64,000 nucleotides of DNA from Chlorops oryzae (Eukaryota > Arthropoda > Insecta > Diptera > Chloropidae), in the NCBI GenBank assembly GCA_020466095.1, contig CM035806.1:69889077-69953076 (forward strand). The letters run 5' to 3'. Numbering within the stretch: the first letter of the stretch is position 1; the number at the start of each line of letters is the position of its first letter. A model generated the notes under the pieces. That model made no database searches. It was not told the DNA's origin and worked only from the letters and a program-made list of their open reading frames with translations. A program made the translations under genes and the position numbers. This document shows positions 25,616 through 44,031 of the stretch, piece after piece.

Positions 25616-25851
25616 TACAGTATGCAAAACTCGTATTCATACACCTCAAAATTTCAGTGAAAAACTGATTTTTACTGCCATAAAAATAGAATTTTGGATG
25701 AAAACTCATAAAAAGCATTACTTTAATGCAAATCAAGCAGAAAAACAAACAAAAGATATTATAGTTTTCAAAATATAAGCAAATTTGTTATTTTGGCACG
25801 CAAAATTCGTATTCATACATCTGTTTAGTTTCTATTTTTAACAGCTTTTTA

Positions 25852-26892: not shown

Positions 26893-27018
26893 TGCTTCAA
26901 AAAACGAATTGAGTCGAAAATGTCAAGTTATAACTATAGATTAAAATCTGGACAATTGCTAAACAGCTGTTTTTGACACATTAAATAAGTAGATGTTATC
27001 CCAGGACCACATTTGGTT

Positions 27019-28004
27019 AGTAGGGGGGATATGTTCGTTCTGGATGTGCAACTTTTTTTGTATGGAAAATCGGAAAAAGACGCACATTTGAGATCTAGAA
27101 AATTTTTGTTGATTTGTATGAGACGTCGCACATTTGAGATCTAGAAAATTTTTTTCATTTGTATGAGACGTCGCACATTTGAGATCTAGAAAATTTTTGT
27201 TGATTTGTATGAGACGTCGCACATTTGAGATCTAGAAAATTTTTGTTCGTTTGTATGAGACGTCGCACATCTAGAAAATTTTGGTTGGTTTATATGAGAT
27301 GACATACATTTAGGTCTTTGGAAATTTTGGTTGGTTTATATGAGATGACATACATTTAGGTCTTTGGAAATTTAGGAAGTTTGTATGAGGTGACATACAT
27401 TTAGGTCTTTGGAGATTTTTGGAGGTTTATATGAGAAGGTTCGCATTGAGCCTCATTGAAGAGGTGAGGGGGTGAGAAACTGTGCGGTAGGAGAGCATAT
27501 ATAGTTCAATATGTAAACATTGGGATAGAGCTGGAGTTGACTTATCGCTACTGAAGTCATTGAGATGAAGACAAGGCATGATTTTTTAGTCAGAACAAGT
27601 TGAAGCTTGCCTCATTGAATGTTTTGAAAAATTAGTACATATATGTGTGAGTATGGTGTGGGTGAGAAGCTGTGCGGTAGGAGAGCATATATAGTTCAAT
27701 ATGTAAACATTGGGTTAGAGCTGGAGTTGACTTATCGCTACTGAAGTCATTGAGATGAAGATAAGGCATGATTTTTTAGTCAGAACAAGTTGAAGCGTGC
27801 CTCATTGGATGTTTATTCAAAAATTTTTCAAGTTCAAGTTCAGTGCAATCGGGGGGATATTTTTGGGATTGAATGTTTTGAAAAATTAGTACATATATGT
27901 GTGAGTATGGTGTGGGTGAGAAACTGTGTGGAAGTTTGAAGAAAAGTGTGAAGGTATAAAAATAAAACTTGTTCTATTGACACTATCAGTCTTACAAGTG
28001 AAGT
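27019..28004. repeat. Polinton left TIR, 986 bp, built from nested tandem repeats
   Basis: It begins with about four units of a 46-bp repeat (GAGACGTCGCACATTTGAGA, 27120-27270), then three of a related unit (GAGATGACATACATTTAGG, 27294-27430). Next come two copies of a longer unit of about 190 bp (GAGAGCATATATAGTTCAAT at 27491 and 27681). No difference from the right TIR was seen in the stretches compared. Confidence 0.93.
27955..27990 (+). promoter_or_regulatory. TIR promoter: TATA box plus initiator facing inwards (polymerase side)
   Basis: TATAAAAATA starts at 27955 and the arthropod initiator ATCAGTCT puts its A at 27988, 33 bp later. The same sequence in the right TIR faces the other way, so both ends of the element would drive transcription inwards. 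It fits the 5' UTR and intron found in front of the polymerase gene. Confidence 0.6.
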
Positions 28005-28423
28005 GTGCATAAAATCAGATTTTCTCCTTTGACGTTGCCATTCTTTAAAGTGAAATCAAACAGTTCAGTTTAAATTTATCGAAAAATCGATCGTGAGCGT
28101 CGGTTTCGAAAGTAGTGTCGTCTTTAAGTGTATAAAAACCCGTGGACTTATCCAATCCGTATCGTGATCCTCGTATTGATAGAGACTAACGTCCATCATC
28201 AAAGTTTACACTCAAAGACGATCGCAGACAATTCCGCCGTCAAACCCCCAGGTATGTGACCCTTTGCATCCTTTTCTGAAGTGTGCACGTAGCATTTAAT
28301 ATTTTTATTTAATGTAATATATTTTATATGTATATTTATTCCTTTCATTCCTACTGGGAACGTAGGGTTGAATTTAATATATTTTGCTTTTTTGTTTTTA
28401 GAATATAAAAATTGACAATCAAA
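28005..28423 (+). other. Leader of the Polinton polymerase gene, with a 150-bp intron
   Basis: No coding. A donor (CCCCAG|GTATGT, intron from 28252) and acceptor (TTTTTAG, to 28401) define a leader intron. A second TATAAAAA occurs at 28131. The ATG context AATCAAAATG at 28424 is favourable. Confidence 0.55.
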
Positions 28424-31400
28424 ATGAATAAGGCTTGCGAAATTTGTTTAAAGGAGTTTTCTTCGGAAACGGGTATGAAACGCCATAAAAGGGCAATGCA
28501 TTTAAATAACAATTTTTTATGCGAATATTGCGGTGTTATTTTAAAGAATCATTTTACTCTCAAACGACATTATGAGACAACTCATAGTATGGAATTTCCA
28601 AACCAAGACCAAAACGATTCTGATATTCTGTGCGAATATTGCGGTATTAGATTTAAAAACCGTTTTGCTATAAAAAGTCATTATGAGACACTTCATGGTA
28701 CGGAATTTCAAATCCAAGATCAAAACATGTCTGATGAAAACCTTGTCACGAAGAAATGTGAAGCATGTGAAGTAGATGTTATTATAACAGATTGGTCTTA
28801 TCATCTGCGAACCAATCAACATAAAAAGAATAGCATGGTTGACTTTAGTGAAAACCTCAAGAGGATAAATCATGCTTTTAACGAAAAAATGGAAACTCTA
28901 GTTTATGTGAATAAGGATGAAAGTATATTCATTCCAGAACAGTTCTTTGCAGCTGCAAAAACAGAAGTTCTGGACGCATTGAGCAACCTAATTCTAAAGC
29001 ATACATCGATAAAATCTAACATAGAACTATTTTGCGAATATTTGCTAATCAAGCAAAATGAGGAAGAAACAAAAATAATGATAAAATCTTTCTCAACTAA
29101 AATGACTATATTAACGGAGTCATCAGATATAAATGAGGACTTTTCCAAGAAATGCAAAGATATTTTGGAAAAAATGAATGTTTTTCAAGAAAGGGATAGT
29201 GGATGGTCTCTTTTACGAATTGTTCACTTGGAAGTGAACATTAACCAATATAGACCCATGAGAGGATCTGGTCATATAGTGCTTCCATTATGGATTCAGA
29301 AAAAACATGCTTGTATAAATGTTAAAAATAAAGATGAGAACTGCTTCAAATGGGCAGTGATATCGTCTTTTCAAACAGGTCGAAATCTGGAAAAATGCTC
29401 AAATTATAAGCTAAATATAACATTGGATCACATTACTACCCCAGATGGAACTTTGCTTAATTTCTCCAACTTATCATTTCCATTGACATTGAATCAAATT
29501 AAAATTTTTGAGGAGAATAATCCAGAAATAAGTATAAATGTTTTTGGATTGAATGAGGAGAGTAAAGCGATTGTTGGACCGTATTATTTTACTAGAGGAG
29601 AACAACAGAAGCATATAAATCTATTGTTTTTTGAGAAGGAAAACAATCAAACGCATTATATAATATATGGATTAAAAATATTTCAAGGTTGGTAACCCAA
29701 AATATTTATCTTTATTAATTTAATTTTTTACTATTTTTATTATTATTATTATTATTTTTTTTCTTTTAATTTTATTTTTGTAGATTAATCAGCTCTCAAC
29801 TTTCTGCAAATCACAGAATGAAACATCTCTGTCATGGCTGTCTTCAATACACCTTATCCAAGGAACGATTGGAAGCTCATAAATTGGTATGTAATCATGT
29901 CGTAACAAAGCTGCCAGACGAGGACAATAAAATTTTAAAGTTTCGTGCTCAAAAAAAGCAACTAGATGTACCTTTTGTTATTTACGCCGATTTTGAGTGC
30001 ATTTTGGAAAATATAAATATTAAAGATTCGAAGAAAGTTGTAAGCACTAAGCATCATAAGCCAATGGCATTCGCTTATTTTATTAAATCTAAATTTGATG
30101 AAAGTTTGGATAAGTTTAGGATATATACGGGAGAGGATTGTGTTGAAGTGTTTATAAAGAAATTAGTAAATGATTGTAAATTTCTTTATAGCAACTATTT
30201 AAGTGTTTGTAAACCAATGAATTTTCTTACAAAAGAACAAATGAAAAACTTAGCGGAGAGTTCAGTATGTCATATCTGTAATGAAGATCTTATTAATGAT
30301 CGAGTTGCAGATCACTGTCATTTTACTGGAGATTTTCGTGGAGCAGCTCATTCAGAATGTAATTTGAAATATCAGATATCGAAATTTATTCCAGTTTTCT
30401 TTCATAATTTTTCCGCCTACGACTGTCATTTATTTGTAAAAGAACTCACTTCCATTCCCGGAGACATAAGAGTAATTCCACTCAATAAAGAGCTTTACAT
30501 TTCACTATCGAAATACATTCCAATGGGGGATAATCTCAAGAATGAACGCATGGAAATTCGTTTTGTAGATTCCTATAGATTCATGACAGCAAGCTTAGAA
30601 AGCTTAGCTCAAAACTTGCGATCTGAAGATTTTCACGTACTCAGATCAATGTATCCCAACACTGAACAGTTTTCTTTACTTAAAAGAAAGGGTGTCTTTC
30701 CCTATGAATATTTAGATTCAATTGAACGTCTTGAAGAAAATCAACTACCTCCCCGTAAGAAATTTTTCAATATACTAAATAATAGTGAGTGTTCTATTGA
30801 GGACTATAGTCATGCTGTAAATGTATGGAATACATTAAATTGTCAATCATTGAAAGACTACATGATTCTCTATTTAAAAACAGATGTATTTCTCCTAACC
30901 GATATCTTAGAAAATTTTCGAAAAATATGTAAAAGTATCTATGATTTGGATCCTTGTCAATACATAACTATTCCGGGCTTATCTTGGGATGCAATGTTGA
31001 AATCAACAAAAATTTAACTCGAACTATTTACAGATATAAGTATGTATGATTTCGTTAAAAAAGGAATCAGAGGTGGTATTGTCCAATGTTCAAAACGACA
31101 TTCTAAAGCCAACAACAAATATATGCCTGATTTTGATTCCACCAAACCATCTGAATATATTGTATACTTAGATGCGAACAACTTGTATGGTTGGGCAATG
31201 TCTCAGTACCTACCTACTGGAGAATTTGAATGGGTAGAAGACATTGAAAGTTTTAATATATTTGAAATAGATTCAGAAGCTTTATATGGGTATATTTTAG
31301 AAGTAGATTTAGATTATCCCCAAGGAATTCATGATTATCATAATGATTTTCCTTTTTGTGCGGAAAATAAAAAAGTTGGTGGTTCAAGGACATCGAAACT

Positions 31401-32448
31401 AATAACAGACTTAACAGATAAACGAAATTATATCATTCACTATAGAGTTCTACAACAATGTATTAAGAATGGAATGAAACTAATAAAAGTTCATAGAGTT
31501 TTAAAGTTTAAACAGTCACCTTGGTTAAAGAGCTACATTGACTTAAATACTCATCATAGAACGCTCTCTAAGAGTGATTTTGAGAAGAATTTTTTTAAAT
31601 TACTCAACAATTCGGTTTACGGTAAAACTATGGAAAATGTAGATAAAAGGAAAAACATAAAAATTGTGAGTGAATGGGAAAGTAGAGGACGACATTTAGG
31701 TGCTCGTGCTCTTATAGCACATCCAACATTTCGCAGCGTTAAACATTTCAGCGACTCTATGATAGCAATTCAATTAGATCGGGATCATGTTACATATGAT
31801 AAACCGTTATATTTAGGTTTTATAGTACTCGAGTTATCGAAATTTCTAATGTATGATTTCCATTACGACTATATGAAACCCAAATATAATGAAAACCTTT
31901 TACTAAATTATATGGATACGGATTCCTTTATATACACAATAAAGACGGATGACTTTTATTCAGATATATCCAACGATATTGATTTGCGTTTTGATACGTC
32001 CGAATATCCTCCCAAAAATCCATATAATTTACCTTTAAAAAATAAAAAAATATTAGGAATGATGAAAGACGAAGCTAATGGAAAAATAATTAGAGAATTT
32101 GTGGGTCTACGTCCCAAAATGTATTCCTTAGATATAACAGATACGAAAGAAATAAAAAAGTCGAAAGGTGTTAAAAGATGCGTACTCAATAAATTGAGTA
32201 TTAATGATTATAAATTATGTTTATTAGAAGATAAATATTATGTTCGCGATATGTATTTTTTTAAATCAAAATTTCATAAAATTTATACACAATTATTTAC
32301 GAAATTAGTTTTAAGTAACAATGATGATAAGAGATTTGTTAAAGAGGATAAAAAAAATACTTATGCTTGGGGACACTATAAGATTGCTGTAAATGATGAC
32401 GAACCCATGAGTATTGCTAAAGATATTGAATTAATGGAATATATGTAA
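28424..32448 (+). pseudogene. Protein-primed DNA polymerase B (Polinton pPolB) with N-terminal C2H2 zinc fingers
   Basis: It would replicate the element from a terminal protein. Exon 1 (28424-29691) holds three C2H2 fingers (CEICLKEF, CEYCGVIL, CEYCGIRF), a fourth finger-like CEACEVDV...H...H, a coiled middle and the conserved GSGHIVLPLWIQKKHACINV block. A 101-bp intron (29692-29792) keeps the frame. Exon 2 has the exonuclease (VIYADFEC; FFHNFSAYDCHLF), an endonuclease VII-like insert (CHICNEDL...DHCHFTGDFRGAAH) and the polymerase motifs YLDANNLYGWAM, LLNNSVYGKTM and YMDTDSF. A single TAA at 31015-31017 lies between exonuclease and polymerase palm in an otherwise open frame. The gene is therefore inactive unless read through. 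Confidence 0.93.
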
Positions 32449-32522
32449 TGGTTTATAATTATCAGATATTATCAAATTATAAATAAAAGAAACTTTTTAT
32501 GTATTTAAAATTGATATTTTAT

Positions 32523-32890
32523 TTAATTGTTGCATGATTGTGAATACAGAAACTTTAAACACAAATGACCACAGTTATATGAATTGTATTGCTGATTTTG
32601 TTTATAGTTGTATCTTAAATTATTTGCACCGAGATATTTGACAACTTCTTTCGGTGGTGGAAGGTTACCAAAACTATCAAAATATTCCTTAACAGTATTA
32701 TTTTTAAAATATGCTACCCAATGAGTACCATCTCCATCTGATGAATCCAGATTAATTATTCCACATTCAATCTTATGAGGACGTCTTGGTAAAGTATTTC
32801 GCATAAAAACTCCTCTGAAAGATTTCAAGTTAGCGGCATATTTTCTTAGGTCGACCTCGGTTAGGGCTCTTTTGGGTAGAGTGCTAATTA
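32523..32890 (-). CDS. Adenain-like cysteine protease (Polinton PRO), start unclear
   Basis: Ulp1/adenovirus-type protease that would cut capsid precursors. The catalytic set is visible: His in DGTHWVAYF, acid in YFDSFGNLPPP, and QQYNSYNCGHLCLKFL with the Cys. The conserved N-terminal part (ALTEVDLRKYAANLKSFRG) is present, yet no ATG precedes it in frame: the frame runs back into the end of the PX gene and hits a stop. The first ATG (at MRNTLP) would drop about 25 conserved residues. It may start by a mutated codon, a non-ATG codon or frameshifting from PX. Confidence 0.82.
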
Positions 32891-33697
32891 GTTTTTTGAA
32901 TAAGGACGAAGATAGAAACCATATCCATTTCTATAGGGTTTTAAATAAAGCCCATTTCCAATGGCAACAGGTTCCTTGGGCTTTTTATCCTTTGCAGATA
33001 TTATATTTTTTATCATATTTGCAATCGACATGCCTCCAGATACTATTCCTCCAAGTTTTGCAATACCCGCTAAAATTGGTATTAACGGTAAAAATCCACC
33101 CACTTTTGGTACAGGGATTATACGAGGTAGAACTTTACGATTTTTCCTCTTAAGAGTAGATGATAAAGATTTCTCAGCAATTTGAATAGCATCATTCATA
33201 TCAATTGGTTTTGCATTTTTTAAAACTTTTGTAGCATTTTTTATTGTAGTAGTGAAAATTTTAGTACAGAATTTCTTCTTTTTGTTCTTCACAGTCTTTA
33301 GTTTTCGATTATTGTTTTTTCGAAGACTACCACCTATCTTCAGTTTGGCTTTCATTGCGTTTGTGACAAACCAAGCGTTTGCTTTTTCTGCGACACTCGA
33401 ATCTGGAGCTTTTACTCTCTCCCAAGCTCTCTCAACTAAAATCTTATCGGCAATGCGGCGATTAGGTAAGTCTTTGAATTTAGAGTAGGCAATATCGTGT
33501 TCTCTACATGCAGAATCCAAAAGATTTATACCCTTGTCTCCTTTTGCTAAACGTTTTTCGAGTTTAGTTCCCGGTCCACAAAACTGATAGCCTGGTAAAT
33601 GAAGTTCAATTGGCAGTTTGTTAATAAGGTTATTTATTAATCCTTTTCCAACGGCTTTACGTTTACGACTAAATAGTTTTTTGCTGCTAACAAGCAT
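32888..33697 (-). CDS. Polinton PX protein with parvovirus-type phospholipase A2 domain
   Basis: 269 residues. A PLA2 domain follows a basic start: LPGYQFCGPGTKLEKRL is the calcium-loop region, and SACREHDIAYSKF holds the catalytic HD pair. Similar domains in parvoviruses open endosomal membranes; the role in Polintons is inferred from that. The middle is very basic (KKNNNRKLKTVKNKKKKF type), and the C-terminal third has a hydrophobic Gly-rich segment (LPLIPILAGIAKLGGIVSGG) and ends in two LYLKPYRN/FYLRPYSKN repeats. The frame is intact. It is divergent from the ATPase gene and overlaps the start region of PRO. Confidence 0.85.
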   Translation of the reverse strand: MLVSSKKLFSRKRKAVGKGLINNLINKLPIELHLPGYQFCGPGTKLEKRLAKGDKGINLLDSACREHDIAYSKFKDLPNRRIADKILVERAWERVKAPDSSVAEKANAWFVTNAMKAKLKIGGSLRKNNNRKLKTVKNKKKKFCTKIFTTTIKNATKVLKNAKPIDMNDAIQIAEKSLSSTLKRKNRKVLPRIIPVPKVGGFLPLIPILAGIAKLGGIVSGGMSIANMIKNIISAKDKKPKEPVAIGNGLYLKPYRNGYGFYLRPYSKN

Positions 33698-33762
33698 TTA
33701 TAAATTTTTGTTTGTTTGTATAGCACACAAATCAACGGTCAAAAGCGTTCTGAACAAAAAAG

Positions 33763-33800
33763 TATAAAAGGAATCGCTTTTATATCATTGTTGTTAGTTA
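33763..33800 (+). promoter_or_regulatory. TATA/initiator promoter of the packaging ATPase gene
   Basis: TATAAAAG starts at 33763 and GTTAGTT has its A at 33796, 33 bp later; the ATG follows at 33811. The spacing equals that of the TIR, 35515 and 38026 promoters. Confidence 0.55.
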
Positions 33801-33810
33801 AAAGAGTAAA

Positions 33811-34506
33811 ATGCGTTTCATAAGACAACAAATGAATATTTCGGTGAAAAATTTAGACCTAAAAACGATTTCAAATGATAAATTATCACAAATACGTCAT
33901 AGTTCATTGCTACCAAACACAATACGTGCACTAATTGTCGGACCATCGAATTGTGGAAAAACCAACATTATGCTGAGTCTTATTGAAAGCCCCAATGGTC
34001 TTAGATTTAAAAATGTATACTTATATTCAAAGTCATTGCATCAACCGAAATATCAATATCTTCAACAACTTATAAAACCAATAAAAGGAATGGGCTTTTA
34101 CACCTTCTCAGATAATGAAGAAGTTCTAGCTCCAGAAAAAGCAAAATCAGATTCTATTTTTATCTTCGATGATGTTGCATGTGAAAAACAGAACAATATA
34201 CGAAATTATTTCTGTATGGGTCGGCACAATAATATTGATAGCTTTTATCTATGCCAAACTTATACTCGAATACCAAAACATCTGATTCGTGACAATGCAA
34301 ACTTAATTATCATGTTTAAACAAGATGAAACGAACATAAGACATATTTATAATGATCATGTTGGTACTGACATGTCATTTCAAGATTTTTTAAAAATTTG
34401 TTTTGAATGTTGGAAGGATAAATATGGGTTTCTCGTCATTAGCAAAGATGATTCATTAAAAAGTGGACGATTTAGAAAAGGGTTCAACATATTTATTCAT
34501 CTATAA
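33811..34506 (+). CDS. FtsK/HerA-type genome packaging ATPase
   Basis: 231 residues. Walker A is LIVGPSNCGKTNIML (about residue 43-57) and Walker B is DSIFIFDDVAC (about 110-120), followed by the sensor-like QTYTRIPKHLIRDNANLII block. This is the A32-like packaging ATPase shared by Polintons and related dsDNA viruses; it would pump element DNA into capsids. The frame is intact. Its stop codon overlaps the TATA box of the next gene. Confidence 0.93.
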   Translation: MRFIRQQMNISVKNLDLKTISNDKLSQIRHSSLLPNTIRALIVGPSNCGKTNIMLSLIESPNGLRFKNVYLYSKSLHQPKYQYLQQLIKPIKGMGFYTFSDNEEVLAPEKAKSDSIFIFDDVACEKQNNIRNYFCMGRHNNIDSFYLCQTYTRIPKHLIRDNANLIIMFKQDETNIRHIYNDHVGTDMSFQDFLKICFECWKDKYGFLVISKDDSLKSGRFRKGFNIFIHL

Positions 34507-34540
34507 AAGCAAAGTGTATGCACAACAAAATGTTCAGTTT
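34502..34540 (+). promoter_or_regulatory. TATA/initiator promoter of the BIR gene
   Basis: TATAAAAG starts at 34502, overlapping the end of the ATPase gene, and TTCAGTTT puts its A at 34536, 34 bp later. Transcription from here would start after the first in-frame ATG (34518), leaving ATG 34569 as the usable start. Confidence 0.6.
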
Positions 34541-34568
34541 CAAAAACAGATCAAGCAGTTCAACAACA

Positions 34569-35201
34569 ATGTTTGGAGTCAAGCAGCAATCTGATCAGTT
34601 CAATAGTCATCCTTCTTCTTCTTCTTCATCGACAGCAAACAGCCCTGTTCATTATGGAACAGACCTGTTCAATAAGCAGATCTGTTCAACAGCAACAACA
34701 ATAAACAGACCTGTTCATCGAGGAACAGACTCGTTTTGGCCACCATCAATCCAGAGTGTAAAGAATGTTGAACCTTTGGATATGACCGATCGAATGTGCT
34801 ATGAGAGCGAGCGCCTAAAAACTTTCGAAAATTGGCCTTTGGGATGGATGGATACAAGAAGTCTTGCACAATTTGGAATGTTTTACACTGGTAGTGAAGA
34901 TATTGCAAAATGTTACTTTTGTACAGTGGAAATTTGTAAATGGAACATAAATGATGATCCTCTAGCAGAACATATACGCTGGTCGCCTAATTGTCCATTA
35001 ATATGCTTACGTCATACCAACAATCATACTATTCATCAAGATGAGTTGAATGCAATATTGCAAATATCACGACTTATTCTACGCCTTAAAGCAATAGTAT
35101 ATCCACAATGCAGTAGCAAATATGTTTTTCCAAACGACATATATACAGTTTTACATATGGTCAATGCATTGTTACAACTGCAAACTACTGTACCCGATTG
35201 A
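34569..35201 (+). CDS. BIR-domain (IAP-like) protein carried by the Polinton
   Basis: 210 residues from ATG 34569 (ACAACAATG, good context); the frame is open back to ATG 34518, but the predicted transcript starts after it. Residues about 78-148 form a baculovirus-IAP-repeat domain: ERLKTFENWP, LAQFGMFYTGSED, then the exact zinc spacing C-X2-C-X16-H-X6-C in CYFC...EHIRWSPNC. The N-terminal 75 residues are Ser-rich and contain a repeated PVH-GTD motif. There is no RING finger. BIR proteins bind caspases or their activators and block cell death, or act in cell division; the role here is inferred. It has its own Polinton-type promoter and AATAAA shortly after the stop, so it behaves as a resident gene. 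Confidence 0.9.
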   Translation: MFGVKQQSDQFNSHPSSSSSSTANSPVHYGTDLFNKQICSTATTINRPVHRGTDSFWPPSIQSVKNVEPLDMTDRMCYESERLKTFENWPLGWMDTRSLAQFGMFYTGSEDIAKCYFCTVEICKWNINDDPLAEHIRWSPNCPLICLRHTNNHTIHQDELNAILQISRLILRLKAIVYPQCSSKYVFPNDIYTVLHMVNALLQLQTTVPD

Positions 35202-35260
35202 AAACTAATAAAATATATTTTTATAAACTGTATACAATTTTATTTTTTCTTTTCTCTATT

Positions 35261-35309
<49 letters not shown>

Positions 35310-35414
35310 GTTATATTTTATCACTTATTTACCGATTAATTGCAATGTAGAAGTTACAGTGAAAGAGAGAGGAAGAGAATAAATAGGATTTTCTAAAGTT
35401 TCTACCTGTGTCGA

Positions 35415-35488
35415 GAGTTAAACATCTCGCTTTGAGCCTATAGATGTATGACAACGACATACTCCTAACCACTACGCCACGGAAGGTG
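35415..35488 (-). ncRNA. tRNA-like sequence with Pol III A and B boxes
   Basis: On the minus strand TGGCGTAGTGGTTAGGAG is a perfect A box. GTATG-TCGTTGT-CATAC forms a perfect five-pair anticodon-type stem with a seven-base loop. GGCTCAAAGC is B-box-like 41 bases after the A box, the tRNA spacing. The acceptor and T stems do not pair well and position 33 is not T, so it is not a normal tRNA. It may be a tRNA pseudogene, a SINE head or a tRNA-like RNA of the element. Confidence 0.45.
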
Positions 35489-35514
35489 GCAATTAAATTG
35501 AGGACAATTTATAA

Positions 35515-35550
35515 TATAAAAGATGTCATGGACACTTAAATGATCTCATT
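35515..35550 (+). promoter_or_regulatory. TATA/initiator promoter upstream of the 35613 gene
   Basis: TATAAAAG starts at 35515 and CTCATT has its A at 35548, 33 bp later. The ATG of the next gene is 65 bp downstream. Confidence 0.5.
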
Positions 35551-35612
35551 AATAATTTAACCATTAATGCAAACAGTTCATTGAGAGCGTTATCAGTAGC
35601 AACAACAAAGTC

Positions 35613-36644
35613 ATGGATGATGAATTGCTTTCCAAAAATATTCAGACGAGAAAAGTTTTGAGGGATAAGTTCAAAGCCATTAAAATTAATGATTTAAGCG
35701 CAGCAGAAAGTCTGGAAAAAACTTTTCTACCAATCACAGCTCCAATTAAGGATTTGCTTACAGAAACTAAAGTTAAAAATGAAATAGTAAATGATTTGGC
35801 TAAAAACTCTAAAGCAAATATTTCAACTTTCAACAAAAAAAATTTATTCAAAAGACCGATGAAAAAAGATAGGAGGAAAAAAATTAATAAACTACCAAAG
35901 ATTGAAACTAGTACACCAAAAAGGTCTAATAGTGTTGATTCTGTTCAAGATTATGATGATGATGAAGAAAGCAATGATCAATTTTATAGCAATGATGATG
36001 ACGTTGATGATGATGATAATAAATCAAACACTATTAAAGCCATGGAAGAAGAAGAAGGAGAAGTCAGTAATTTGTTAAATGAACCGAATTTTGATCTACT
36101 AGAAAAGCAAAACAGTCTAGATAGAATATTTGGATTGAATTACAATTCGGAAAAGCAATTGATGTTTGGAGACTCAAAAATATCATTCAAAAGTTCTAAT
36201 CAAGTTCAAATTGGTGACGAAACATTTACAATGACACCAGGACTTTTTCAGTTAATGTTCACAAAAAATCCTATCGAATATACTGAACCGGATTTAAAAT
36301 TTTATAAGAAAATTCTATTGAAAACTAATGCCTATAGACGTGGCTATACATCTCGTGGTCAAGTCAATGGAAACAAAGGACCCAAGTATCTAAACATTAT
36401 TCAATTTTTAATCAAAGATGTGGAGAGTAAAGGGTCAAACTCGAACTTAGATGTGAAGAAAGAAGGATTTGGTTTAATGAATTTAAATTTGAATCCAATC
36501 AACTATATATATTGGGATGACCCAAATGAATTGGTTAATCGTTTACGACTACTCATAGCATCACAATCTGCAGGACATAATAATCATAACAACGAAATTA
36601 TTTCAATTATTGAAGAGCTTAAAGAAGCTGACATAATTGAATGA
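35613..36644 (+). CDS. Conserved Polinton protein of unknown function
   Basis: 343 residues, intact. The first half is charged and low in complexity, with a Lys-rich stretch (about 83-100) and an Asp-rich stretch (about 115-135). The second half looks folded: DETFTMTPGLFQLMFTKNP, then AYRRGYTSRGQVNGNKGPKY, NYIYWDDPNELVNRLRLL and a final amphipathic helix. I recall this C-terminal pattern from uncharacterised proteins linked to Polintons in arthropods; no function is established. Its end overlaps the start of the next frame by a few bases. Confidence 0.7.
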   Translation: MDDELLSKNIQTRKVLRDKFKAIKINDLSAAESLEKTFLPITAPIKDLLTETKVKNEIVNDLAKNSKANISTFNKKNLFKRPMKKDRRKKINKLPKIETSTPKRSNSVDSVQDYDDDEESNDQFYSNDDDVDDDDNKSNTIKAMEEEEGEVSNLLNEPNFDLLEKQNSLDRIFGLNYNSEKQLMFGDSKISFKSSNQVQIGDETFTMTPGLFQLMFTKNPIEYTEPDLKFYKKILLKTNAYRRGYTSRGQVNGNKGPKYLNIIQFLIKDVESKGSNSNLDVKKEGFGLMNLNLNPINYIYWDDPNELVNRLRLLIASQSAGHNNHNNEIISIIEELKEADIIE

Positions 36645-36666
36645 AAACTCGACGAAAAATAAAAAG

Positions 36667-37098
36667 ATGAGCGTGGACAAATTCGGTCGATATAATAACA
36701 ATACATCCAAGTCAAAAAGTTTTAATACGGAATTGACTCTAAGCGCTAGCAGAGATCACAGCTTCAACGCTCATTTTAAACGCATCAGAAATCTTAAAGA
36801 TCCAATAGTAAAGGGCGACGCTGCAACGCAAAATTTTGTAATTCTAAGTCTTGATGCGTATCGAACTGAATTTCAGGATTCAATTAAAGCTTATGAAAGT
36901 CACCGTAATAAAGAAATTGAAACCGTTTATGAAAAAATTAAATCTATTGAACGCGATATTGATGAGAGGTTTAAGGTGTATATGGAATATGTTGAGAAGC
37001 GTTTAGAAGGTACGGAAAATGTTTTGTTTTCAATGATTTCTAATCAAAACATTATTCAAAAACCAAACCAAAACCACACAATACCATCTTCAAGATGA
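36667..37098 (+). CDS. Small coiled-coil Polinton protein
   Basis: 143 residues from MSVDKFGRYNNN (an upstream ATG at 36637 lies within the end of the previous gene). The C-terminal half is predicted helical and coiled (KEIETVYEKIKSIERDIDERFKVYMEYVEKRLEG). The block FKRIRNLKDPIVKGDAATQNF looks conserved. Its TGA overlaps the ATG of the integrase gene (ATGA at 37095-37098). Function unknown; an oligomeric structural role would fit a coiled coil. Confidence 0.65.
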   Translation: MSVDKFGRYNNNTSKSKSFNTELTLSASRDHSFNAHFKRIRNLKDPIVKGDAATQNFVILSLDAYRTEFQDSIKAYESHRNKEIETVYEKIKSIERDIDERFKVYMEYVEKRLEGTENVLFSMISNQNIIQKPNQNHTIPSSR

Positions 37099-38017
37099 GT
37101 CGATATCAAATAGTTGAGGAGCTCCATCGACAGGCACGACGAAATTTTAAACGAAGAGCTGTTATAACCAAAGATATTGATGATCTTTGGCAAGCTGATT
37201 TAGTGGAAATGGGTAATTACTCTACATTCAACAAAGGTTATCGCTACCTACTCACAATCATTGACACTTTCTCCAAATATGCCTGGACCGTTGCGATAAA
37301 GTCGAAAACAGCTCCTGATGTTACCAAAGCAATGAAAAGTGTATTTGAATGCGGTCGAAAACCTAAAAATTTGCAAACAGATGATGGGAAGGAATTCTTC
37401 AATAAAGAGTTTCAACTTTTAATGAAACAAAACAAAATAAATCACTACTCTACCTATAGTGTAATGAAAGCCTCGATAGTTGAACGATTTAATCGCACTT
37501 TGAAAAATATGATGTGGAAGGGCTTCAGTAATCGCGGTTCTTACAAATGGATTGATGAATATCAAAAATTGACTAAAGAGTACAATGGAAAAGTCCACAG
37601 AACAATAAAAATTGCACCCGATAAAGTGAATTCTTTAAATGCAGCAACAATTCTAAAAACGATTTACAACCGTCTGAAAGTCTATAATAAGCCCAAATTT
37701 CATGTAAACGATTACGTTCGAATAAGCAAATATAAACATGTTTTTGAGAAAGGTTACACACCCAATTGGACAACGGAAATCTTCAAGATAAATATTATAA
37801 GATTCAAAATACCAATCCATGTACTTATATTCTAGAAGACTATCAGGGAAATGTAATTAAGGGTGCTTTCTATACACAAGAATTGCAAAAATCACGTTTT
37901 CCTCACATGTATTTAGTTGAGAAAGTTATAAAGAAGCGGGGTGATAAAGTGTATGTAAAATGGTTGGGGTTTTCCGATAGTCACAACTCTTGGATAAATA
38001 AATATGATATACTATGA
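37095..38017 (+). pseudogene. Retroviral-type integrase with chromodomain (Polinton INT), frameshifted
   Basis: The catalytic core has D in LWQADLVEMGNY, D in LQTDDGKEFF and E in MKASIVERFNRT. Reading leaves frame near 37790, after WTTEIFKI. In the shifted frame the protein continues with YILEDYQGNVIKGAFYTQEL and ends in a chromodomain (YLVEKVIKKRGDKVYVKWLGF). The integrase would insert Polinton DNA and make 6-bp duplications. One shift in an AT-rich run is the only lesion seen. It is read as the third gene of a tightly packed group. Confidence 0.9.
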
Positions 38018-38025
38018 AAAAATTT

Positions 38026-38062
38026 TATAAAAAGAAGTTTTATTTCTTTGATTGATTCAGTT
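38026..38062 (+). promoter_or_regulatory. TATA/initiator promoter of the capsid gene cluster
   Basis: TATAAAAAG starts at 38026 and ATTCAGTTT has its A at 38059, exactly 33 bp later; the penton ATG follows at 38088. Confidence 0.6.
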
Positions 38063-38087
38063 TACTTTACTATCTCAACCCCTCAAG

Positions 38088-38783
38088 ATGTCAAGAACAT
38101 TGACTTAAACTGGAAATTCCTCAATTCTTACAGCAAATTATTTTCCTCCCATAGAGCTTAAAAAGGAATATGTTTGTGGACTGATTGATTTTCATACATA
38201 TTACTCAATACCGAATATTGATGAAAAAAATAACCTTTTTCACATTGGCAAGCATGTAATCGAGCTTCCTATCGGGTCATATGAGTTCGATGATATTGTG
38301 AAATATATTTTAGACGCATACGAAAATCAAGAAGCAGCAGCAGCTGGTGCTACATTAAGTATAAAGGCCAATAATAATACATTAAAAGCTGAAATCTTCT
38401 CTGAAAAAGATATAATTTATTTTGATAGAGAGAGAAGCATTGGATCGCTTTTGGGATTTTCAAAGCGTCAACTTAAACCTGATGAAACACATATATCGGA
38501 TACAAGTTTAATGATTACCCAAAACAATGTTGTACGTATTGAGTGCAACATTGTGGGCGGTTCATATGTTAACAGTACCTTGGCACACACCTTACATGAA
38601 TTCTCTATAAATGTTGAACCGGGATATAAAATAGACATAATTCCAAATAATGTTATCTATTTGCCTGTGATCGTCAAAGAGATAGGTTCAATTGCAGTTA
38701 GACTTGTTAACGAAAACGGTGTATTATTAAATTTTCAAGGAGAAACAATTACATTAAGACTCCACTTGAAACCTGTTGAATAA
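38088..38783 (+). pseudogene. Penton (minor capsid) protein with an early stop
   Basis: From ATG 38088 the frame reads six codons, then TAA at 38106-38108, then stays open to 38783 (231 residues in all). The stretch after the stop has the penton signature NYFPPIELKKEYVCGLIDF, HTYYSIPNID and PIGSYEFDDIVKYIL, followed by a single jelly-roll type C-terminal part with FEINVEPGY-like and LRLHLKP blocks. It would sit at the capsid vertices. The next ATG (38298) would lose a third of the domain. Confidence 0.87.
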
Positions 38784-38795
38784 TTAGCATCAGCT

Positions 38796-38972
38796 ATGAT
38801 TATATTTAATAAAAATGGTGTGAACGATGGTTCTTCTATCAGTTTATCTTCATCTCTTGTACATAACGCATCAAGAATAAGCAAAGAAAAATTTCTTATA
38901 AAAAAGCCATTAAGTATTAAAAATAGAAACTTTTTACAATCATTGGGATTTACTTACATTAAAAAGAAATGA
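38796..38972 (+). CDS. 58-residue basic protein between penton and capsid genes
   Basis: Starts at ATG 38796 and ends in ATGA overlapping the capsid start (38969). Ser-rich in the first half and Lys-rich in the second, ending NRNFLQSLGFTYIKKK. Tight coupling with the capsid gene and the intact frame support it as real. I have seen a FLxSLGF tail in short Polinton proteins near the capsid genes, but cannot confirm the family. Role unknown. Confidence 0.55.
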   Translation: MIIFNKNGVNDGSSISLSSSLVHNASRISKEKFLIKKPLSIKNRNFLQSLGFTYIKKK

Positions 38973-40159
38973 ATAATATCTTGAGAGTTGGAGAACAACC
39001 CGTCTTCGATGAGTCTATTACGAAGAAAGAATTTCACACATATCAACCATATTTGCAATCCTTTAACAACAATGATGAGATACGGATAGCAATTCAAAAT
39101 CAAGATCTCTACGTTCTACCTCATGAAAGCTTACTGTACATTGAGGGGGTTGTTTCAATTGGTTCCGAAAATGCAGAACCCAAAGGAGTTAAATTTCGAA
39201 ATAATTGTATTGCATATCTATTTGAGGAAATACGTTATGAAATGAATGGTGTGGAAATTGATCGCACACGGTACTTGGGTCAAACTTCTACTTTAAAAAA
39301 TCTTGTATCCTTAAACAAAAATACAAGAACAATGTTGGAAAATGCCGGTTGGTCTCCGGAAGAAAATATTTAACCAGCTATAAATAATGGCTATTTCAAT
39401 TTTTGCGTACCACTAAAAATGTTGATGGGCTTTGCCGAAGACTTTGATAAAATTATGATAAATTCAAAACATGAGCTTATATTGCTACGTTCTAGATCAA
39501 ATGATAAGTCTGTCTATAGTACGGAAGAGAGTGAAAAGGATAACATTAACTTAAAGCTCTTAAATGTTGCTTGGAAGGTTCCCCAAATTCAATTATCCGA
39601 TGCAGCCAAATTGAAAATCTATACAACTATTAAAGAGGATATTCCTCTACCTATATCATTTCGTAGTTGGGAATGTTACTTTTATCCAGAGCTACCTCAA
39701 AGTACAAATCATACATGGAACATAAAAGTAGGAACACAAAGTGAGCGTCCTCGTTTTATTCTTATCGCTTTCGAGAATGGAGAAAAGTTTACAAACTGTA
39801 GCTTAACCGATTTAAAAGTACATTTAAACTCTGTTTCATATCCATACGATGACCTTAATTTAAATTTGTCTCGTAATCGATATGCTCTCTTATATGAAAT
39901 GTATGCAAGGTTTCAACAAAGTTATTACATGATTGAGTCACACCCACTTTTATGCTGCAAAAAGTTTAAAGAATGTCCAATAATTGTTATTGACACATCG
40001 CATCAAAATGAAGAAATTAAAACAGGTGCTCTCGATATTCGTATAATGTTCAAAACTCTTGAAAACATTAAACCAAACACTTCGGCATATTGTGTTCTTA
40101 TACATGATCGTGTCATTACATACAAACCGATGACTGGTGAAATTGTAAAGCACACTTAA
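38969..40159 (+). pseudogene. Major capsid protein (double jelly-roll), one in-frame stop
   Basis: 397 codons in a single frame with one TAA at 39371-39373. The first part has VFDESITKKEFHTYQPYLQSFN and EIRYEMNGVEIDRTRYLGQTSTL. After the stop it continues with GYFNFCVPLKMLMGFAEDF, WKVPQIQLSDAAKLKIYTTI and FRSWECYFYPELPQS, the usual landmarks of Polinton capsid proteins, and ends near KPMTGEIVKHT. The protein would form the icosahedral shell. A TATAAAG at 40160 begins the next unit. Confidence 0.92.
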
Positions 40160-40254
40160 TATAAAGCATTGATTTGTAGCACATTTTATTTATTTCATCA
40201 TAAGCCTTTGAGCAAAAAACTTGTTCACGACAATAAAACCCGGATAAAGGAAAA

Positions 40255-40773
40255 ATGCCTAAATTTGTTGTCTTCGATTGTCAAGGCTTCCGACTCACTA
40301 ATAACCATTTCATTTTTAAGGAAGTCGCTTTTTGCTTCAGTGATAAAAAATATATCCATTTTCTTATAAAGTCACCATTTAATTTCAAATTATTGAACGA
40401 TGCCGAGAAAAAATCAGTAAATTGGCTCAAAAACAACTACCATATGCTCGATTGGGACTCTGGTGACTTCACTTTGAGTGAAATGAAGAAATATATGAAA
40501 TTTTTCCTCAAAGGCTATCAAATACATGTAAAAGGCGAAGAAAAATCAATGTGGGCAAAGGAACTTTTGGCAGAGTGCGCAATTTCTGGCATAAAAGAAA
40601 TCGATTGTAATTATTCGCTTAAGAACATAAGGCACCTATGTGATTCAGATGATATAACATGTAACAATCATTGTAATTTGTTGACAAGAAAAAAGAAAGC
40701 TTGCGCTTGCGCCCTTAAAAATTCTTTAGCTCTAAGAAAATTTGTTCAAGATTATGGTTCAGCTATGTCATAA
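40255..40773 (+). CDS. Conserved Polinton protein of unknown function, possibly RNase H-like
   Basis: 172 residues, intact. Starts PKFVVFDCQGFRLTNNHFIFKEVAFC, a pattern (first strand with Asp, then a KEhA motif) that I recall from many uncharacterised insect proteins linked to transposons. It continues NNYHMLDWDSGDFTLSEM, IHVKGEEKSMWAKELL and a Cys/His-rich tail (CDSDDITCNNHC, CACAL). The opening strand and acidic residues suggest an RNase H or exonuclease-like fold, at low confidence. AATAAA follows at 40795. Confidence 0.6.
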   Translation: MPKFVVFDCQGFRLTNNHFIFKEVAFCFSDKKYIHFLIKSPFNFKLLNDAEKKSVNWLKNNYHMLDWDSGDFTLSEMKKYMKFFLKGYQIHVKGEEKSMWAKELLAECAISGIKEIDCNYSLKNIRHLCDSDDITCNNHCNLLTRKKKACACALKNSLALRKFVQDYGSAMS

Positions 40774-40869
40774 GTTTCTTTATTAATTTATTAAATAAAA
40801 GATTCTTTTAAGAATTGAAAACAAAATTTATTTTCTTTTATTTTTGAAAAAAAATGTTTACATATTTTA

Positions 40870-41337
40870 TTAGAATATTTTCCTTTTCTTAACATTTATA
40901 ACATCATCAACATAATCATTATCATTATCTTCCTCAATATCATTGGTTCTTATATTAGGTGGGGCGTAAAAAAGGTTTTCATTGAACAAATGATCATGAA
41001 CGTTAAAATCTATGAAGAGTGGTTGAGAGTTTGGAATACCTTCAACAATGTGTAAAGTATAATTTTGCATAGACCCTCTCCGAATTAGAGAAAAACTTTG
41101 ATCTTTCAATAGCTCCAAGGTTTCTTCCTTCAAATCGTTGAACATTGCCGGTAAAAATATTACTCCTTTGATAAGTTCCAATAAAATTCGTTTTCCAAAT
41201 TTTGTTTGAACTCTCACAGCCCTAACAATAGGATGCTGTTCCCCTTCTGCTAGCTGATTAATAGGGATACTTTCCTTTTTATTAAGTCTTTCGAAGTCCT
41301 TAATAGCATTCAGAGCTCTCTGACTTTGATCCGTCAT
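40870..41337 (-). CDS. Small conserved protein, OB-fold-like, at the right end of the Polinton
   Basis: 155 residues, intact. The core INQLAEGEQHPIVRAVRVQT...FGKRILLELIKGVIFLPAMF has the alternating pattern of an OB fold such as found in single-strand DNA-binding proteins; the tail is acidic and then ends in a KKRKIF nuclear-signal-like cluster. A leader intron (41344-41410, GTAAGG...TTTTTTGTAG) and the right TIR promoter (initiator A at about 41480) precede it. A replication role as ssDNA-binding protein is inferred. Confidence 0.6.
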   Translation of the reverse strand: MTDQSQRALNAIKDFERLNKKESIPINQLAEGEQHPIVRAVRVQTKFGKRILLELIKGVIFLPAMFNDLKEETLELLKDQSFSLIRRGSMQNYTLHIVEGIPNSQPLFIDFNVHDHLFNENLFYAPPNIRTNDIEEDNDNDYVDDVINVKKRKIF

Positions 41338-41463
41338 ATTTATCTACAAAAAATAAAAGGACATTATTAATTTAATTTAAAATAATTTGTTGTTTTTTTT
41401 TTTCCCTTACCTTTTTTGTATTTTTGTGCGTCGCAAGGGTACTACTATATCAATATCTGTTTG

Positions 41464-42449
41464 ACTTCACTTGTAAGACTGATAGTGTCAATAGAACAAG
41501 TTTTATTTTTATACCTTCACACTTTTCTTCAAACTTCCACACAGTTTCTCACCCACACCATACTCACACATATATGTACTAATTTTTCAAAACATTCAAT
41601 CCCAAAAATATCCCCCCGATTGCACTGAACTTGAACTTGAAAAATTTTTGAATAAACATCCAATGAGGCACGCTTCAACTTGTTCTGACTAAAAAATCAT
41701 GCCTTATCTTCATCTCAATGACTTCAGTAGCGATAAGTCAACTCCAGCTCTAACCCAATGTTTACATATTGAACTATATATGCTCTCCTACCGCACAGCT
41801 TCTCACCCACACCATACTCACACATATATGTACTAATTTTTCAAAACATTCAATGAGGCAAGCTTCAACTTGTTCTGACTAAAAAATCATGCCTTGTCTT
41901 CATCTCAATGACTTCAGTAGCGATAAGTCAACTCCAGCTCTATCCCAATGTTTACATATTGAACTATATATGCTCTCCTACCGCACAGTTTCTCACCCCC
42001 TCACCTCTTCAATGAGGCTCAATGCGAACCTTCTCATATAAACCTCCAAAAATTTCCAAAGACCTAAATGTATGTCACCTCATACAAACTTCCTAAATTT
42101 CCAAAGACCTAAATGTATGTCATCTCATATAAACCAACCAAAATTTCCAAAGACCTAAATGTATGTCATCTCATATAAACCAACCAAAATTTTCTAGATG
42201 TGCGACGTCTCATACAAACGAACAAAAATTTTCTAGATCTCAAATGTGCGACGTCTCATACAAATCAACAAAAATTTTCTAGATCTCAAATGTGCGACGT
42301 CTCATACAAATGAAAAAAATTTTCTAGATCTCAAATGTGCGACGTCTCATACAAATCAACAAAAATTTTCTAGATCTCAAATGTGCGTCTTTTTCCGATT
42401 TTCCATACAAAAAAAGTTGCACATCCAGAACGAACATATCCCCCCTACT
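41464..42449. repeat. Polinton right TIR, 986 bp
   Basis: Reverse complement of 27019-28004 with no difference noticed in the segments compared, including the tandem blocks. It carries the inward TATA/initiator promoter on the minus strand (TATA near 41513, initiator near 41480). Confidence 0.93.
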
Positions 42450-42556
42450 TTGGTTGGTGTATGAATACGAATTTTGCGTGCCAAAATAACAAATTTGCTT
42501 ATATTTTGAAAACTATAATATCTTTTGTTTGTTTTTCTGCTTGATTTGCATTAAAG

Positions 42557-43918
42557 CAGAGCCGGATTAAGGTTGCCGGGGGCCGGGGGCCAGAGAATGG
42601 TGGTGGCCTTTCTGTTAGTTGAAAGATATAGGATGAAATTTCACACAATAGCAGAAAATGTGTTTGTAGAAAGGTTATCAATTATAAGAATGAAAATATT
42701 TTTCAACGTTCACATTTTGTTTATTTAACAGTTTTCATAAAATATTTTTTTTTATTCAGCGTCTTTTCAACCAATATAAACTTTTCTCGATTTTATCCTA
42801 GCGAATTCTTCAATGAGAGTTTCAAACGATAATTTTTTTAATATGTCGCTTTTGATACTCAAAATCATCAAACTAGTCAGACAAACAGTTTTTTTGCGGT
42901 TAGTTCAAAAATAGCAGTTTTATTCTCGAATAAGAAGTGTAGTTTCCTTAAAAAAATGTTTCTGTCTCAGAAATTCGTATGATAAGAAAGGTTACTAATA
43001 GAAAAAAAATACAAGTTGTTTGTCAGAGACATGATATTTGAATTTCACTTGATCGCAGACAATTTCGGAAAACCTCACCAACAGTTGAAAACAACTTCTG
43101 GTAGGTATATGTTCATAAGTAGTGGACCATTATTCCCAGATCAGGGGAATTCTTTTTTCTCTGCTCGGTGAGGACAAATGGAACATAAATTTTTTTTGAT
43201 CTTTTTGCGCACGACCACAGAACATGTAATTCAAATTCGGTTAAAAATGTACGGAAAAAATTCCGCTCGATTTTTCGCTAACCGCAAGAATGCATTTTTC
43301 TCCGCTGTCCAACTTCAAAATCTGCTAGATCTAGCCGAAAATCTGCTGATCAGGCATCACTGCTTTTGATTGTGATCCTTCAGACTTATTTCGTTATACT
43401 TGTTTCCACCACATACATATGGCAATTTCACCACATAGAATACTTATGGCCTTATTGGAATTTTTCAAATATAGAAATATTGGAAGTAATAAAAAAGTTA
43501 TGAAGAGTTGAAAATTGCTTCGACGTATTGTCTCAGTAAGGGCGAAATGGTTAAAATAAATCGTCATAAAATCACTTATTCCGCAAAACAAATCTGCTGC
43601 TCCACGAAAAAGCGGTCAAGTGCGAGTCTGAGTAGAGCGAATATTATAAAATAAAATTGACTATGTAGCATATTTTCACTAAACGACAGATTGATTGTTA
43701 GCAAAAGTACGTTTTGTGATTGATAAAAGGGTTATTCAATTCTTAAGTCCACTGAATAACCGTATAAATAGGTGAAAATTTTAAGAGAGTAGTTACTGAA
43801 TATCTTGAAAACTATAATAAATAAAAAAAAATTAATTTGATCACTGCTGGTGGGGGCCCCCACGTGGTGGAGGCCCGGTGCCACTGGCCCCCCTGGCCCA
43901 CCCTATAATCCGGCCCTG
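42557..43918. mobile_element. hAT-type MITE C, copy 1, inside the Tc1 right repeat
   Basis: 1362 bp, ends CAGAGCCGGATTA and TAATCCGGCCCTG, with the 8-bp duplication CATTAAAG at 42549-42556 and 43919-43926. The empty site is seen in the left Tc1 repeat (around 25733). Both ends are G/C-rich, the rest AT-rich. No transposase frame is present. A second copy lies at 53901-56773. Confidence 0.9.
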
Positions 43919-44031
43919 CATTAAAGTAATGCTTTTTATGAGTTTTCATCCAAAATTCTATTTTTATGGCAGTAAAAATCAGTTTTTCACTGAAATTTTG
44001 AGGTGTATGAATACGAGTTTTGCATACTGTA

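Follow-up and report, generated by a model that had tools for sequence, protein, structure and literature searches.

We identified, within a 64,000-nt stretch of the Chlorops oryzae genome (contig CM035806.1, positions 69,889,077 to 69,953,076; hereafter the window), a gene for a small protein with a single BIR domain and no RING, located inside a 15.4 kb Polinton (27019-42449 of the window). The domain is a BIR1 of the IAP1 type that has diverged over a long time while keeping its zinc site and groove. Our preferred reading, which we hold with moderate confidence, is that a fly Polinton took up the BIR1 of IAP1 and has retained it in the form of a small gene, the product of which binds IAP-binding motif (IBM) peptides and holds back apoptosis. 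The gene comprises the following features:

34502-34508, + strand: TATA box, overlapping the stop codon of the upstream ATPase gene (34504-34506)
34533-34537, + strand: TCAGT resembling an initiator, about 31 bp downstream of the TATA box, with its A at 34534
34518-35201, + strand: BIR gene, 227 aa in its longest ATG frame (open reading frame list, Pfam BIR); likely start at 34569, 210 aa
34794-35069, + strand: DIAP1-BIR1-like domain, residues 93-184 of 227
35070-35198, + strand: C-terminal tail with predicted helices (model residues 174-198 and 206-222), for which sequence searches gave no relative
35207-35212, + strand: poly(A) signal AATAAA, following the BIR stop codon

The frame stays open from stop to stop across 241 codons (34476-35198), and the chance of 227 open codons given the base composition of the Polinton is about 8e-9. 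Pfam places a single BIR domain at residues 99-162 (E 2.9e-19; 69.8 bits, with a cut-off of 22.9 bits), and neither a RING nor any second family was reported up to E 0.1, in agreement with the first-pass annotation, which had described an IAP-like BIR protein lacking a RING. The zinc pattern on which that description was based, C132-X2-C135-X16-H152-X6-C159, is embedded in a complete match to the fixed positions (G120, Y123, D128, C132, C135, W142, H152, and C159) of the BIR consensus GX2YX4DX3CX2CX6WX9HX6-10C, as given in PMC3972657. With its zinc core and a Pfam score above the cut-off, the protein belongs to the BIR domain family, and the score together with the open-frame probability rules out a chance motif. 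Outside the domain, the N terminus is Ser-rich and unrelated to IAP1, and the tail blocks have pLDDT (predicted local distance difference test) values of 52-88 in the predicted structure. Short repeats made of CAGACCTGTTCA-type units, including a 43-bp duplication at 77%, occupy the N-terminal coding part (34593-34735) and give rise to a repeated PVHxGTDxF in the protein.

The gene appears to have its own promoter, as had been proposed, and the same pairing of TATA box and initiator occurs elsewhere in the Polinton. Within the element, TATAAAA is followed by TCAGT at promoter distance at three places on the + strand and at one on the - strand, where 0.042 per strand would be expected and the maximum among 500 shuffles was 2; elsewhere in the window, beyond the Polinton, the counts were 0 and 1. 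Transcription is predicted to start near 34534, making 34569 the first in-frame ATG and yielding the 210-residue product that had been anticipated. The lone - strand pair is the copy in the second terminal repeat: both terminal repeats have an identical TATA/initiator near their inner end, directed from the outside inward (27955-27986 and 41513-41482 on the - strand), and inward transcription from either end of the element may therefore occur.

Multiple lines of evidence place the domain among the BIR1s of fly IAP1 proteins. The closest sequence matches, among those listed, are fly IAP1s with 56-61% identity over the BIR, and identity to DIAP1 BIR1 is 48%. The E-value was 1.6e-28 for the DIAP1 BIR1 chain and 2.9e-10 for the best survivin chain, and a survivin/BIRC5 type was rejected on this basis. 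Trees were built from 73 and 38 of 134 available rows, with viral IAPs left out. In the 73-row tree, the query fell inside a group of 52 brachyceran-type IAP1 BIR1s (support 100/98), unplaced within that group. Its end branch was 1.08 changes per site (median 0.095) in this tree and 1.19 (median 0.13) in the 38-row tree, and in the latter a clade joining the query to six small blowfly-type IAP1-like proteins was not rejected (approximately unbiased test, p-AU 0.256). The tree position and the long end branch together indicate that the source was a fly IAP1-type gene that has changed much since. Because the predicted structure of the BIR was built on an IAP1 alignment, its resemblance to DIAP1 adds no evidence beyond the sequence match. 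With a BIR1 of the right type, no second BIR, no C-terminal RING, and no other family, the protein is not itself an IAP1, just a relative of the IAP1 BIR1. Near-identity to one host gene, which would have marked the gene as a chance capture, was not observed; the identity of 56-61% and the length of the end branch rule out the recent capture of a near-identical host gene.

Conservation within the domain is uneven. The query keeps 26 of the 30 columns that are at least 95% conserved among 123 IAP1 BIR1s (the set after four rows were dropped beforehand) and has the commonest residue in 27 of the 62 remaining columns (Fisher p 9e-5 against the conserved columns). The four conserved columns that it misses, at residues 162, 164, 171, and 182, are all behind the zinc core. 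When drift was modeled from 30/30 down to 58% identity, at least 26 residues were kept in 2 of 2,000 runs and the frame stayed open in 7.4%, with both outcomes combined in none; an earlier version of this model had used just the 26 kept residues, which favored the selection reading, and the rerun reported here used all 30. Part of this conservation can be due to selection that acted before capture.

As judged from its residues, the domain retains the IBM groove of a type II BIR. An AlphaFold3 study named 11 BIR1 residues as Reaper contacts (PMC12803136); eight are unchanged in the query, including the equivalents of W103, D94, and E99, while G84, G88, and C89 differ. The G84 and C89 positions are variable within the IAP1 family anyway. 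We consider the following course of events. A Polinton of a fly, probably a brachyceran, would have acquired BIR1, but neither BIR2 nor the RING, from a fly IAP1 gene. The captured part would have persisted as a small gene that has its own promoter and is located between the ATPase and later genes. The product would most likely fold as a type II BIR, with a groove that may bind the N terminus exposed on active drICE-type effector caspases, that of IAP antagonists of the Reaper/Hid/Grim type, or both; each is a reported ligand of DIAP1 BIR1 (PMC3972657). A RING-less BIR1 could be a sink for antagonists, as is thought for dBruce (PMC12803136), or could cap active drICE; either would delay the death of the host cell while the element copies its DNA and assembles particles there. 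Along this path the gene would be expressed, the product would bind peptides and inhibit apoptosis, the element would benefit, and the gene would serve a virus-like stage of the Polinton, as the first-pass annotation had envisaged.

Several points weigh against this reading. The gene is known from one Polinton copy only, and this copy is probably dead, so the intact frame says little about present use. Codon usage fails to mark it as a Polinton gene: its correlation is 0.61 with the Polinton genes and 0.53 with a gypsy element, and the values for the ATPase itself are nearly equal (0.70 and 0.69). A Cys occupies the position of DIAP1 G88, where 114 of the 123 IAP1 BIR1s have Gly; Cys is also found there in one fly IAP1-like protein (Cochliomyia, P0003). 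Finally, the control of DRONC by DIAP1 is reported to need BIR2 and the RING, the latter being absent here, and caspases in vivo may not be blocked by BIR1 binding alone (both reviewed in PMC3972657).

It is conceivable, although doubtful, that the reduced IAP1 BIR1 serves fly Polintons as a death inhibitor in the style of viruses, over which host IAP antagonists have little control. Lacking a RING, the BIR protein cannot destroy itself upon antagonist binding, and the Cys at the G88 position may weaken that binding; changes of Gly88 are known as gain-of-function alleles of thread. Were this so, it would be evidence that insect Polintons go through a stage where the death of host cells is a real obstacle.

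Alternatively, the gene may be a chance passenger, that is, a fragment of a host IAP1-like gene captured by one element or subfamily and useless to it, with the open frame and core residues reflecting host selection prior to capture and a recent insertion. We regard this as possible, if rather unlikely. The insertion is indeed young, with one mismatch between the 986-bp terminal repeats, and the existence of IAP1-like paralogues of 301-315 aa in blowflies (Calliphora, Cochliomyia), together with the unrejected common clade, makes late capture of a fast-evolving paralogue possible. The search results point the same way: all 16 of 16 matches, and the 120 listed of 557, were IAP/BIR proteins, and none matched the N- or C-terminal parts of the query, although the adjoining ATPase has 2,300 relatives with up to 77% identity (those with names being from Lucilia cuprina and Stomoxys calcitrans). 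Most source contigs of the BIR matches were short, and their genomic context could not be read. The gene is thus either rare among Polintons or too diverged in them to be seen. No confirmed relatives came from a viral-contig collection, whether the query was a single sequence (BIR protein, ATPase, or second piece of the major capsid protein) or an alignment (ATPase or BIR); as neither BIR nor Polinton relatives were found in it, this collection is no test of residency. A search of genome contigs with the ATPase alignment gave two matches of poor quality (24% identity; 20 residues at 70%). On the other hand, the gene forms a complete transcription unit fused onto the end of the ATPase gene, and both termini of the protein are unlike IAP1. 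A retrocopy of a host IAP was rejected, as a check of poly(A) runs and flanking repeats gave no trace of one: we found no poly(A) run of at least 7 in the 420 bp behind the stop codon, and flanking repeats did not exceed a simple 9-mer in length (without a shuffle control). The claim that this is a resident Polinton gene stands only in part, being backed by an intact, long-diverged frame with its own promoter and weakened by the single copy and the lack of a listed relative with its tail.

It is also conceivable, though improbable, that the BIR protein has some other job, in NF-kB/immune signaling, as a structural component of the particle, or in mitosis in the manner of survivin. The single BIR and the modeled helical tail superficially resemble survivin, immune signaling is known for some IAPs (PMC3972657), and the single-BIR protein A224L has been reported in virus particles (PMC5618007). 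However, survivin chains match far worse than DIAP1 BIR1, and the caspase/antagonist groove is retained. Descent from an insect virus IAP (baculovirus, nudivirus, or entomopox) instead of a fly gene is highly improbable: many such viruses encode IAPs and the query model matches 40 viral models (E up to 0.001), but identity to the viral rows is 18-40% (27 and 35% for the two best), below that to DIAP1 BIR1 and the fly IAP1s, and no viral name occurs among the 16 matches or the 120 listed of 557, most of which are nameless.

Comparison with known systems places the protein closest to DIAP1/thread BIR1 of Drosophila in BIR type, by sequence, fold, and tree, with identical zinc residues and the shared IBM contacts described above; it differs in lacking BIR2 and RING, in its Ser-rich N terminus, helical tail, and Cys at the G88 position, and in being encoded by a transposon. 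By identity, the closest BIR1s among the matches listed belong to small blowfly proteins of IAP1-like type (Calliphora vicina P0004 and P0138, Cochliomyia hominivorax P0003, and P0002, P0005, and P0159). One of them, the Cochliomyia protein P0003, shares the Cys at the G88 position; unlike the Polinton protein, they all have two BIRs and a RING. A further protein of 166 aa, P0012, is a short BIR1-type protein without a RING and with a C-terminal hydrophobic stretch; it is a candidate mobile or viral BIR, the context of which could not be read from its 1167-bp source contig. The IAPs of insect viruses typically combine BIR and RING domains and have lower identity to the Polinton BIR. Like the present gene, they are carried by a DNA-virus-like element, and they are considered to protect the infected cell from death (PMC3972657). 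African swine fever virus A224L is similar in length, has one BIR and no RING, and is a reported caspase 3 inhibitor (PMC5618007); it belongs to another virus class with a mammalian/tick host, has a terminal C4 zinc finger, and is set beside the Polinton BIR by description only. The giant Burro (Gypsy) retrotransposons of planarians also have BIR (and BCL2-like) motifs inside a transposable element (PMC6431247), but within a huge polyprotein, whereas in the Polinton, a DNA element that encodes a capsid, the BIR has a gene to itself. Mammal-associated adintoviruses are related to Polintons and are said to encode anti-apoptotic homologues (PMC11071296), although their hosts are mammals and the passage concerned names neither BIR nor IAP.

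The carrier was identified as a Polinton by its long terminal inverted repeats (986 bp, one mismatch) and 6-bp target duplication, an rve integrase, a Pox_A32-type packaging ATPase, and a double-jelly-roll capsid protein. It also holds a phospholipase-A2-like gene and a frame that weakly matches the adenovirus protease. Its features, apart from the BIR gene, are:

27019-42449, no strand assigned: Polinton
27013-27018, no strand assigned: target-site duplication TTGGTT, left copy
27019-28004, + strand: left terminal inverted repeat, TATA/initiator at 27955/27986
28424-29695, + strand: C2H2 zinc-finger open reading frame (Pfam)
29818-32448, + strand: PolB-like gene, two pieces of one frame with an in-frame stop at 31015, named from PolB-type sequence motifs
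32526-32930, - strand: adenovirus-protease-like frame (Peptidase_C5, E 0.001, below the Pfam cut-off)
32888-33697, - strand: phospholipase-A2-like gene (Pfam E 1.3e-13)
33811-34506, + strand: packaging ATPase of the Pox_A32 family, immediately upstream of the BIR gene (Pfam E 1.8e-9)
35613-36644, + strand: 343-aa open reading frame without assigned function, directly after the BIR gene
36667-37098, + strand: 143-aa open reading frame without assigned function
37095-37835, + strand: integrase (rve), frame ending early at 37833 (Pfam E 1.8e-16)
38109-38780, + strand: open stretch, probable minor capsid protein by position, without a Pfam match
38969-40159, + strand: double-jelly-roll major capsid protein, two pieces of one frame with an in-frame stop at 39371 (Pfam E 1.4e-88 and 2.6e-21)
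41464-42449, - strand: right terminal inverted repeat, differing from the left one by a single mismatch
42450-42455, no strand assigned: target-site duplication TTGGTT, right copy

Pfam gave no PolB match in the PolB-like gene, reporting Endonuclease_7 alone, in the first piece. The BIR gene had been placed between the ATPase and the structural genes; it does adjoin the ATPase, but two open reading frames and the integrase come next and the capsid genes only after them. Its intactness beside broken core genes, of which this copy has at least three, was borne out: stops interrupt the PolB-like and major capsid frames, another (38106) lies shortly behind the ATG of the probable minor capsid frame, and the integrase frame is cut short. 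Given the near-identity of the terminal repeats, the insertion is young and some of this damage may predate it, which may fit a copy mobilized with the help of others, or sequencing error.

The phospholipase-A2-like and ATPase genes diverge from one short region (33697-33811) with a near-symmetrical double TATA (TATAAAAGGAATCGCTTTTATA). The interval that separates the BIR gene from its downstream neighbor contains a GA microsatellite (35262-35310) and a tRNA-like A-box motif (35463-35478, - strand; GGCGTAGTGGTTAGGA), possibly the remnant of a short interspersed nuclear element; ARAGORN and Rfam gave no match over the whole window, including the A-box region. Tandem repeats of 46 bp occupy part of each terminal repeat (27081-27436 and 42032-42387). 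Exact inverted-repeat arms flank the Polinton on both sides (25616-25819, 42458-42556, and 43917-44031), and it appears to be inserted in an older Tc1-like element, the right arm of which is itself interrupted by an insert of 1360 bp.

IAPs in insect DNA viruses and BIR motifs in planarian retrotransposons are already known, and A224L, with its single BIR and no RING, is a reported working parallel. In the literature on IAP, BIR, and anti-apoptotic genes of Polintons, Mavericks, and adintoviruses, which did not include the founding adintovirus paper (Starrett 2021), we found no report of an IAP gene in an insect Polinton, and the available portions of PMC8363768, PMC8097293, PMC11071308, PMC10675110, PMC12567637, PMC6035795, and PMC10812802 tell of no such gene. 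The interest of the Polinton BIR gene is real but unproven, and the case hinges on a second copy. It is an open question whether animal Polintons are purely transposons or lead a viral life as well, with a particle stage. If our reading is true, a conserved death inhibitor among their genes would support, on functional grounds, a stage during which the element is limited by the survival of its host cell, and transposons would join the routes by which IAP genes move.
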